A model generated the notes under the pieces. That model made no database searches. It had not been told where the DNA came from and saw nothing but the letters and a program-made list of their open reading frames with translations. A stretch of 64,000 nucleotides of DNA from Nitrosopumilus cobalaminigenes (GTDB lineage: Archaea > Thermoproteota > Nitrososphaeria > Nitrososphaerales > Nitrosopumilaceae). Within the stretch, counting starts at the first letter, position 1. The number at the start of each line of letters is the position of its first letter. The position numbers and the translations under genes were made by a program. This document shows, piece after piece, positions 24,625-27,900 of the stretch. The stretch spans positions 372,001 through 436,000 of the forward strand of contig NZ_CP026993.1 in the NCBI RefSeq assembly GCF_013407145.1, read 5' to 3'.

Positions 24625-25959
24625 ATGAAGCAAAACACAACAATGTTTGTAATAGTGGGTGTAATCATTGGATTCAGTATTGCATTTGTAGCATTTATCC
24701 AATCTCCTGAAATTCAAACAACTACTGCAGAATCATCTGAGATTTATCCAAAATTTACAAATCCTAATCCTAAGACATTATCTTATACGTTAATTGCTCA
24801 AGATGCGAAAATTGAAGTATCTCCTGGCGTCCAAGCTAAAGTCTGGACGTACAACGGAACAGTCCCTGCACCAACTTTGAGATTTTCAGAAGGCGATGAC
24901 GTTACTGTAAAATTTGTAAATGAAACTCCATATGCCCACACAATCCATTTTCATGGAACTCATGATTCTACAAATGATGGTGTTTTTCCACAGATAATGC
25001 CTGGTGAGGAATACACGTATCATTTTGTTGCACATGAAGCTGGCATGTTCATGTATCACTGTCATGCGTTTCCAACATCTGAACATGTGAGAATGGGAAT
25101 GTTTGGTGCAATGATTATTGATCCTGCAATACGTCCAATGGAGCCTGCACGGGAATACTTTTTCACTCTAAGTGAGTTTGATCCTAATAATGCATTAGAA
25201 TACTTTACAGAATTTTATCCAGTAAACGGATACGCAAACCAGTATATGGATAACCCAATACAAGTTGTTTCTGGGGAATTAACTAGATTCTATGTAATGG
25301 GAGTTGGTGGCGTATTGCAATCTCCTTTCCATGTGCACAGTACAATAATGAAAGTATATCCTTCAGGAATTTTATGGAATGAACCATACTTTGCACAGAC
25401 ACATCTAATTGGAAATGGTGACACTGCAATTATAGAGGCAACATGGGATACTCCAGGAAAATATCTATTCCATGTTCACGGTATTCAAGAAGAACGTGGC
25501 TCTATGGCAATAATTGAGGTGTTAGAAGATGCATCATCATTATCTGAAATTCAAACTCCTAGTAACAACAAAGGAAGTTATTCCATGATAGAGTGGCAAG
25601 AAGATTTGATAAGAACACTAGAGCAACCAAAACTAATCACATATGATAACTTGGGAGAAGCCAAAGTAATTGATGCACCAAAAATTAAAACAGACAAAGT
25701 AATAATTGTCAAGGATTCATGGAATCCTGACGTTGTAGAATCTTATGATCCTACTGCAATTGAGATTGCTTCAGGTACTACTGTAACTTGGACAAATGAA
25801 GACTTTGTTATACACACTGTTACAGATGATGAAAACACATTTGATTCAGGATTTATTCAAGCAGGAAAAACTTGGTCAAACACATTTGAAAAGTCTGGTG
25901 AATATGGTTATCTCTGTACTTTACATCCTTGGATGAAAGGAACTGTTAGTGTAAACTAG
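24625..25959 (+). CDS. two-domain multicopper oxidase fused to a C-terminal plastocyanin domain
   Basis: The 444-residue exported protein has an N-terminal anchor/signal (about residues 7-25), two cupredoxin domains and a third C-terminal cupredoxin. In domain 1, His105, Cys146, His154 and Met159 form a type-1 copper site. HxH pairs at 108/110, HCH at 145-147, HVH at 235-237 and HVH at 282-284 give all eight His of a trinuclear copper cluster, unlike plain NirK. The C-terminal domain has its own type-1 ligands (His about 396, Cys 430, His 433, Met 436). NirK-like and laccase-like roles in N-oxide chemistry or copper homeostasis are both possible. Confidence 0.85.
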   Translation: MKQNTTMFVIVGVIIGFSIAFVAFIQSPEIQTTTAESSEIYPKFTNPNPKTLSYTLIAQDAKIEVSPGVQAKVWTYNGTVPAPTLRFSEGDDVTVKFVNETPYAHTIHFHGTHDSTNDGVFPQIMPGEEYTYHFVAHEAGMFMYHCHAFPTSEHVRMGMFGAMIIDPAIRPMEPAREYFFTLSEFDPNNALEYFTEFYPVNGYANQYMDNPIQVVSGELTRFYVMGVGGVLQSPFHVHSTIMKVYPSGILWNEPYFAQTHLIGNGDTAIIEATWDTPGKYLFHVHGIQEERGSMAIIEVLEDASSLSEIQTPSNNKGSYSMIEWQEDLIRTLEQPKLITYDNLGEAKVIDAPKIKTDKVIIVKDSWNPDVVESYDPTAIEIASGTTVTWTNEDFVIHTVTDDENTFDSGFIQAGKTWSNTFEKSGEYGYLCTLHPWMKGTVSVN

Positions 25960-26025
25960 ATGAGATATGATTACTAAAAATCAAATTTCATCAAAGGATT
26001 TAAAGTGTAATTTCTTATAATACAC

Positions 26026-27900
26026 ATGAAATTATTTCTGACAATTATTCCTTTGATATTTTTAGGAATTGTGGGTTTACAGGAATCATATGCTGAAGAT
26101 ATGGCAGTGGTAAATTCATCCATAACTCAGCAGGAATTAAAAACCATGGTTGAGAATTGGATGAATAATCCCGATGAGAATGATACAAACCAACGTCTAG
26201 AAATCATGAAAGCATATTATGCATTTAAAGAGACAGGACAGAAACTATCTCACGATAGAGAAGGATTAGTCTTGATGAACCAGATTACAAAAATGGTTAG
26301 TTTTGATATGCCTAGAGAGGAACTTGATGAATTAAGAAGTCAAGTGAGGGTGGAACTTGGATTAGAGACACCTTCTGAAACCAAAATTCTATACATTGAT
26401 TCAAAACTGGTTGACTGTGTTGGAGTTGGTCCACAAAAATGCATGAATGTTCGTGAGAGTATGGATTTCAGTTGGAAAAATTTCTATGATTCCATCAAAG
26501 GATTTGATTATGTTGAGGGAAAATCCTACAAGATTTCTGTAAAAGTAACTGATGTTGAAAACCCTCCTGCTGATTCATCAAGTAAAAAATATGAATTAGT
26601 TGAAATTCTTGATACTAAATCATACTCTAAACATATTCCATACAACAACATTTGTGCACCAGGTTATGTTTCACTTGGTGAAATCTGTGTTCTAAATGAC
26701 AGATGTGGACCTGGAATATATCCTGGAAAAGTCTGTGTTATGGATGGAGTAAAGCAACCCTATCTTAGACCATATCAGCAGGGCAATGCAGGAATTTCAG
26801 CAAACGATGTTATTTGTACAGAAGATAGACAACTACTCTTCAAGTCTGATGCAACACCTGTCTGTGTTAAACCAAGCTCTATGGATAGATTAGAAAAAAT
26901 TGGATGGCATGTTGACATACCACCTATTGCATGTACTTTGGAATATGCTCCTGTTTGTGGTGTTAATGAAAAAACATATGGAAACATGTGTGCATTAACT
27001 GCAGATCATGTTGCAATGAAAAACAAAGGTGAGTGTAAAGCAATTATGCATGACACTTTTGGACTATTTGAAAATACATTACAATATGCTTCTATACCTC
27101 CAATAGTGTCTGAAGAAAAAGGATATGTTGTAACTGAAATTGCAAATGGAGTATTTTGGCTTGTTGGAAGTGGATACCAGACAATGTTTCTAACTACTGG
27201 AGAGGGTGTTGTTGTAATTGATGCACCAAAACCTATTGGTGAAAAATATCTAGAAGCAATTAACGAAGTAACTGATGAACCCATCACTCACATGATTTAC
27301 TCTCATCACCATCAGGATCATACTGGGGCTGCAGGTATGATATTTTCTGAAGATATAACATACATTGCACACAAAGATGCTGCCGATTTGCTTGTATCTG
27401 ATAATGATCCTAACCGTCCTATACCCAATATGGTTCTTGAAGGTGATTTCAATACTCTGGAAATTGGTGATAAAACTATTGAATTACACAACATTGGGGA
27501 CTTTCATTCTAAAGGAAATTGGCTGATTCTTTTACCTCAATATGAAATTGCAATGCTAGTTGATTTGTTTCGTCCTGCTGAATCACCATATCGTGCATTT
27601 GGAGTAACTCCTGACATTGATTTGTATTTGGAAACTCATGATGTCTTGCAAACTTTTGATTTTACGGTTCTTGTATCAGGTCATACTGAATTACTTGCAA
27701 CAAAAAAACATGTAGGTACAAATCAAATGTTTACACAAAGCATAATGGATAATGCTCAGATTGGATTAGATTCTGATGTTGACTCTCTTGAAATATGTGT
27801 CAATACTTCTATCTCTCAATGGGAAGGGAAATTAGGAAATCTTGATGCGTTTATGGTTGATCATTGTAATGCAATGATAGAGTATCTGCAATCCAAATAA
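26026..27900 (+). CDS. secreted multidomain protein: DUF4377-like, Kazal and metallo-beta-lactamase domains
   Basis: The 624-residue protein has a signal peptide (1-23), a helical segment, and a domain at about 120-200 resembling DUF4377 (DCVGVGPQKCMNVRES, NPPADSSSKKYELVE). Next come a Cys-rich region (about 205-282) and a Kazal-type inhibitor domain (about 303-337: CTLEYAPVCGVNEKTYGNMC). A metallo-beta-lactamase domain follows (about 360-560) with HxHxDH at 427-432, His494, Asp513 and His553, so both metal sites look intact. It probably acts outside the membrane as a hydrolase of unknown substrate. It follows the oxidase gene by 66 bp, with its own promoter space. Confidence 0.75.
   Translation: MKLFLTIIPLIFLGIVGLQESYAEDMAVVNSSITQQELKTMVENWMNNPDENDTNQRLEIMKAYYAFKETGQKLSHDREGLVLMNQITKMVSFDMPREELDELRSQVRVELGLETPSETKILYIDSKLVDCVGVGPQKCMNVRESMDFSWKNFYDSIKGFDYVEGKSYKISVKVTDVENPPADSSSKKYELVEILDTKSYSKHIPYNNICAPGYVSLGEICVLNDRCGPGIYPGKVCVMDGVKQPYLRPYQQGNAGISANDVICTEDRQLLFKSDATPVCVKPSSMDRLEKIGWHVDIPPIACTLEYAPVCGVNEKTYGNMCALTADHVAMKNKGECKAIMHDTFGLFENTLQYASIPPIVSEEKGYVVTEIANGVFWLVGSGYQTMFLTTGEGVVVIDAPKPIGEKYLEAINEVTDEPITHMIYSHHHQDHTGAAGMIFSEDITYIAHKDAADLLVSDNDPNRPIPNMVLEGDFNTLEIGDKTIELHNIGDFHSKGNWLILLPQYEIAMLVDLFRPAESPYRAFGVTPDIDLYLETHDVLQTFDFTVLVSGHTELLATKKHVGTNQMFTQSIMDNAQIGLDSDVDSLEICVNTSISQWEGKLGNLDAFMVDHCNAMIEYLQSK

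Follow-up and report, generated by a model that had tools for sequence, protein, structure and literature searches.

A four-cysteine Kazal domain joined to a metallo-beta-lactamase-fold domain in Nitrosopumilus cobalaminigenes, and its shuffling among surface proteins of the Nitrosopumilaceae

Kazal inhibitors are known mainly from animals. What, then, might a Kazal domain be doing on the same polypeptide as a putative extracellular hydrolase in a marine ammonia-oxidising archaeon? The gene raising this question lies in a window of 64,000 nucleotides (the whole stretch of DNA analysed here) of the single-contig, 1.56 Mb genome of N. cobalaminigenes. The joining of the Kazal domain to a metallo-beta-lactamase (MBL) domain is real; an artefact of gene prediction or assembly can be ruled out, as the identical fusion is found in independent genomes and in NCBI MAGs. 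The single open reading frame and its surroundings are organised as follows, in coordinates of the window:

24625..25959, plus strand: neighbouring gene outside the system, 66 bp upstream, multicopper oxidase with a C-terminal cupredoxin (Pfam)
25999..26004, plus strand: TATA-like TTTAAA, 27 bp before the ATG (from the sequence only)
26026..27900, plus strand: whole gene, DUF4377 / Cys-rich / WING-49 / Kazal / MBL, one open reading frame of 624 amino acids from the ATG at 26026 to the stop at 27900
26026..26094, plus strand: predicted Sec signal peptide, residues 1-23, cut after ...SYA (ESYA-ED; read by eye)
26119..26364, plus strand: N-terminal helical domain, residues 32-113 (helices of the model, architectures of relatives)
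26392..26610, plus strand: DUF4377, residues 123-195 (Pfam, E=2e-26)
26632..26769, plus strand: Cys-rich motif of 46 residues, 203-248, with C210, C221, C227 and C237 (sequence)
26770..26910, plus strand: WING-49, residues 249-295, with C264 and C280 (NCBIfam NF058652, E=6e-17)
26923..27036, plus strand: four-Cys Kazal domain, residues 300-337 (Pfam; model and Foldseek match to 4hgu; alignment of 73 sequences)
26938..26943, plus strand: predicted reactive-site bond, P1 Leu305 - P1' Glu306 (position relative to CII as in OMTKY3 and GmSPI-2)
27112..27897, plus strand: MBL-fold domain and C-terminal helices, residues 363-624 (Pfam; model pLDDT above 90; Foldseek)
27304..27321, plus strand: HxHxDH metal motif, here HHHQDH, residues 427-432 (H427, H429, D431 and H432 invariant in 21 relatives)
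27505..27507, plus strand: metal ligand His494 (invariant in 21 relatives)
27562..27564, plus strand: bridging metal ligand Asp513, at the Cys221 position of B1 enzymes (invariant in 21 relatives)
27682..27684, plus strand: metal ligand His553 (invariant in 21 relatives)

Much of this anatomy had been described in the initial annotation and has stood: a putative signal peptide can be read by eye, the DUF4377-like domain belongs to DUF4377 proper (92.1 bits, Pfam cut-off 25), and the Cys-rich region resolves into the 46-residue motif followed by a WING-49 domain (61.4 bits, NCBIfam cut-off 22).

The four-cysteine Kazal domain

The presence of a genuine Kazal domain, likewise proposed before, is borne out by two Pfam families scoring above their cut-offs, Kazal_1 (PF00050) at residues 302-329 (E=4e-7, 30.4 bits against 21) and Kazal_2 (PF07648; E=2e-5, 25.0 bits against 22.8), and by a model that superposes on solved Kazal inhibitors. 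The six cysteines then ascribed to it have to be corrected, however: direct counting gives four (C303, C311, C322 and C337), all of them invariant in 73 aligned archaeal copies, while the half-cystines CI and CV are absent from every copy of this alignment. The spacing C-x7-C-x10-C-x14-C recurs in 74 of 75 archaeal pattern matches, one of which is spurious, and two weaker Kazal-like matches outside the alignment differ, L002 by extra cysteines and L112 by being partial. A classical Kazal domain with six Cys and three disulfides can thus be ruled out by the direct count and the 73 relatives, and judging from its sequence the domain is a non-classical four-Cys form resembling GmSPI-2.

The structural evidence comes from a model of the cassette (residues 203-341, built on 73 sequences), in which the Kazal part reaches a pLDDT of about 94. 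In Foldseek comparisons it superposes on GmSPI-2 (4hgu) with 0.9 A over 39 columns and a TM-score, taken by target length, of 0.91. The leech tryptase inhibitor (1an1) gives a TM-score of 0.90, whereas follistatin aligns poorly. The predicted fold is accordingly the beta2-alpha-beta fold of Kazal domains, and the disulfides would be CII-CIV and CIII-CVI, corresponding to C303-C322 and C311-C337. The Foldseek E-values are weak (0.015) because the Kazal domain makes up only 39 of the 139 residues modelled, and the sequence evidence for its identity is much stronger than these values. In a model of the full-length protein, built on a shallow alignment, the Kazal domain reaches a pLDDT of about 30, too low to fix its position towards the MBL domain.

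The closest solved sequences include the ovomucoid third domain and GmSPI-2, with agrin repeats also among the matches. GmSPI-2 from the silk of the insect Galleria mellonella is a four-Cys inhibitor with two disulfides, acting strongly on subtilisin and proteinase K (PMC4169406). It (4hgu, 2m5x) has the identical cysteine spacing, the same fold, 44% identity and a similar reactive loop (CTTEWDPVCG, as compared to CTLEYAPVCG in the archaeal domain), but it is a free inhibitor of 36 residues with Thr at P1, whereas the archaeal domain sits inside a multidomain enzyme and has Leu305 at this position. The turkey ovomucoid third domain, OMTKY3 (Kazal, MEROPS I1; ACTLEYxPxCG....KTYGNxC), contains six Cys and three disulfides, in contrast to the archaeal domain lacking CI and CV, and yet the reactive loop A-C-T-L-E-Y is identical in both, including T-L-E-Y at P2-P2'. 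Four-Cys Kazal domains are also encoded on plasmids of the alphaproteobacteria Pseudochrobactrum and Shinella, with the loops CTMEYAPVCG and CTMEYRPVCA; these are short proteins made up of Kazal repeats with a longer middle loop, devoid of MBL, WING-49 and DUF4377. As the four-Cys form is shared with alphaproteobacteria, a bacterial source of the archaeal domain is possible. A viral or phage source was considered as well and dropped, since relatives of the module were found neither in viral contigs nor in phage records.

With P3 Cys303, P2 Thr304, P1 Leu305, P1' Glu306, P2' Tyr307 and the spacer Asn320, the loop residues are compatible with a predicted inhibition of serine proteases. Among the 73 archaeal copies P2 is Thr in 71, the Asn corresponding to Asn320 is kept in 72 and the P4' Pro in all 73, and these three positions together with the Gly after CIII are nearly fixed in cassettes and other carriers alike. 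P1, by contrast, is Leu in 27 of 30 cassettes and Met, Leu or Lys in the other carriers, and P3' is variable across the same alignment, resembling the variation seen in inhibitors tuned to different proteases. One would expect such conservation in inhibitors, not in a fold with a structural role alone.

The hydrolase domain and the adjacent copper oxidase

Pfam places Lactamase_B at residues 386-487 (E=7e-6, 26.6 bits, cut-off 22.7), and the complete MBL site claimed for this protein holds: none of the seven ligands (H427, H429, D431, H432, H494, D513 and H553) is missing, and in 21 relatives all of them are invariant, like a Cys pair in the C-terminal helices (C591, C614). The domain was modelled with a pLDDT of about 90 or more and superposes on solved MBLs, the nearest structures being 8d2z, class B1 beta-lactamases, chlorothalonil dehalogenase and an alkylsulfatase (Foldseek). 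The predicted fold and the HxHxDH, His, Asp, His ligands place it in the MBL superfamily. With 8d2z (an uncharacterised MBL protein from Burkholderia cenocepacia), the B1 beta-lactamases and the Pisa1 alkylsulfatase it has the MBL fold in common at 12-20% identity, differing in Asp513 instead of the B1 Cys221, in the helices with C591 and C614 and in the fused Kazal domain. We regard this ligand set as the one used by general dinuclear MBL hydrolases, among them glyoxalase II, lactonases and alkylsulfatases; it would suit an enzyme that hydrolyses a small ester, a lactone or a sulfate ester.

The best matches include models and structures of class B1 beta-lactamases, and one could imagine a true beta-lactamase conferring drug tolerance on the archaeon. 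The scores, however, fall far under the cut-offs of the curated lactamase families (45.7 bits against 100 and 44.7 against 200), and Asp513 takes the place of the B1/B2 ligand Cys221 in all relatives; membership in class B1/B2, that is, a canonical beta-lactamase, is ruled out on these two grounds. To our knowledge, archaea moreover offer no peptidoglycan target, and we regard drug tolerance as an exceedingly improbable function.

The copper oxidase reported next to the gene is real as well. It contains four HxH motifs (HFH, HCH, HVH, HVH), as do two-domain laccase-type multicopper oxidases, and with 113 bits it stays far under the nitrite reductase cut-off of 296. From its position on the same strand, only 66 bp away, it had been suggested that both proteins jointly process an external substrate, and one further locus (L066) holds homologues of both, about 4 kb apart. 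This locus is, however, the only other one among 20 family loci with an oxidase homologue near the fusion, and TTTAAA before the ATG is possibly the fusion gene's own promoter, giving a leaderless transcript. Because the linkage is this rare and a separate TATA-like element precedes the gene, the suggested joint function is unsupported: an operon or pathway with the oxidase was rejected for want of conserved linkage, and a common role of the two proteins in one pathway appears very unlikely. No functional neighbour of any kind is conserved in the 20 family loci, where only the common genome context of close relatives recurs.

Distribution of the fusion and of its parts

About 17 of 200 Nitrosopumilaceae genomes, belonging to six genera, contain a joined Kazal and MBL domain, and NCBI MAGs add further cases. 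Among 300 Thermoproteota genomes sampled, Kazal_1 was detected in 31, all of them Nitrosopumilaceae (5 genera) and none outside this family, and WING-49 in 41, again all Nitrosopumilaceae, while close relatives of the MBL domain are found in Nitrosopumilaceae and in one genome from another family of the order. The surprise earlier expressed at a Kazal domain fused to a hydrolase in an archaeon has a partial precedent as regards the domain, for a Kazal-type inhibitor, arCOG10350, has already been mentioned for a sponge-associated thaumarchaeon of the same phylum-level group (PMC6697440); where that source names it, the mention is an annotation, without fusion, architecture or cysteine count.

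Across the different architectures, what stays constant is the block Cys-rich/WING-49/Kazal. DUF4377 is located before it, after it or nowhere, and the helical domain is N-terminal, C-terminal or encoded by a separate small gene. In two genomes (G048 and G032; L064 8001-9991, L065 7975-9959) the gene for the helical domain lies on the opposite strand and directly abuts the gene for DUF4377, Kazal and MBL, a layout that looks like the outcome of an inversion within one original gene. In five fusion loci (L018, L019, L023, L040, L041) Kazal and MBL are separated by about 200 additional residues, a stretch without a Pfam match in L018, and one fusion locus has two Kazal domains. In G143, one of the about 17 genomes with the fusion, a single in-frame TGA (L017 2143-2145) cuts the Kazal half off from the bulk of the MBL domain, representing either a pseudogene or a sequencing error; L017, labelled 'no Kazal' in the tree, is the C-terminal half of this interrupted fusion. 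The MBL tree groups the fused proteins and places L022 and L024, both devoid of Kazal, within their cluster. A single fusion followed by loss of the cassette would fit this arrangement, though branch support leaves room for other histories. As these close MBL relatives lack the cassette, the enzyme can do without it.

The Kazal module is shuffled among many surface proteins of Nitrosopumilaceae. Of the other Kazal proteins in this family, 25 of 38 contain a plastocyanin-type copper domain (cupredoxin), and typically begin with a hydrophobic anchor, followed by Kazal, a stalk rich in Pro and Glu, and one or two cupredoxins; further carriers comprise a nuclease-like protein (L089, recognised by eye) and membrane-anchored proteins (L116). 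The genome of N. cobalaminigenes alone encodes four Kazal proteins: P1 is Leu in the fusion, Lys in a DUF1254/DUF1214 protein and Met in a cupredoxin protein, and the fourth carrier, a DUF4377 protein, has a different, more Cys-rich Kazal domain. At L002 of this genome (1510-2160, minus strand; contig 1 near 223500) Kazal is combined with DUF4377, the Kazal domain scoring just under the Pfam cut-off and containing extra cysteines, so that its sequence would place it in a lineage separate from the four-Cys type. L050, also in this genome (406-1716, minus strand; contig 1 near 868600), encodes an apparently secreted protein in which two WING-like Cys motifs and about ten VEDEQTLP repeats in tandem are combined with a C-terminal part, seemingly MBL-like although lacking the HxHxDH motif, in which Pfam detects no MBL; this part is possibly a dead MBL.

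What the Kazal domain may do

Taking these data together, we consider the protein a probably dinuclear-zinc MBL hydrolase, predicted to be secreted via Sec and to carry its own Kazal inhibitor, which most likely protects against extracellular serine proteases; to this reading as a whole we assign a probability of about one half. The hydrolase would be exported with the inhibitor mounted on a surface module rich in disulfides. Using the standard mechanism, the Kazal loop would bind and block proteases of the subtilisin or chymotrypsin type, and carrier and cell surface would thereby be shielded, be it from the archaeon's own subtilases or from proteases of neighbouring bacteria. Protection seems the most likely role because one inhibitor type has been built into many exposed proteins of Nitrosopumilaceae, and its recurrence on otherwise unrelated proteins favours protection over the regulation of one particular protease.

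Kazal-fold domains in animals, for example in agrin and follistatin, can be non-inhibitory. The archaeal domain might accordingly serve as a structural or binding spacer, which together with the Cys-rich motif and WING-49 would keep the hydrolase attached to the S-layer or to a polymer; its position in a mosaic of small Cys-rich modules, its place between N-terminal anchor and cupredoxins in other carriers and the agrin repeats among the sequence matches all are in line with such a role. We nevertheless find it rather unlikely, considering that nearly all copies retain the loop positions typical of inhibitors, that P1 varies among residues accepted by proteases, and that the structural match is to inhibitors and a poor one to follistatin. 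Less probable still is that the Kazal domain acts in trans, restraining the archaeon's own secreted subtilases, with the hydrolase as an unrelated activity on the same chain. The genome does encode two subtilases, at 358879-360033 and 1354460-1355278 of contig 1, and one trypsin-like protease, and for sponge-associated relatives serpins located next to subtilases have been proposed to regulate them (PMC6790972). The subtilase genes, however, are about 38 kb and several hundred kb away from the fusion gene, no protease gene recurs near the fusion in 20 loci, and many carriers that are unrelated to each other contain the inhibitor. Returning to protection by a built-in inhibitor, it is tempting to extend this reading to the family, with the shuffled Kazal domain as a general in-cis 'protease shield' on exposed hydrolases and copper electron carriers of marine ammonia-oxidising archaea, a generalisation that we offer tentatively, as a possibility somewhat short of even odds.

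Each of the domains discussed here has been known before. In the open-licence literature searched we found no description of their combination in the Kazal-MBL fusion, of the shuffling or of the strong link between Kazal and archaeal cupredoxins, and surface protection by an in-cis inhibitor, as suggested here, is not known to have been described in archaea. A Kazal domain of the two-disulfide type is present on a hydrolase and on membrane-anchored cupredoxins in one of the most abundant microbial families of the ocean. If these domains do inhibit, they would form a natural collection of serine-protease inhibitors, very small in size and differing in their P1 residue, and they would provide a testable account of how cells that grow slowly and expose a protein surface and redox proteins may survive among protease-secreting bacteria.
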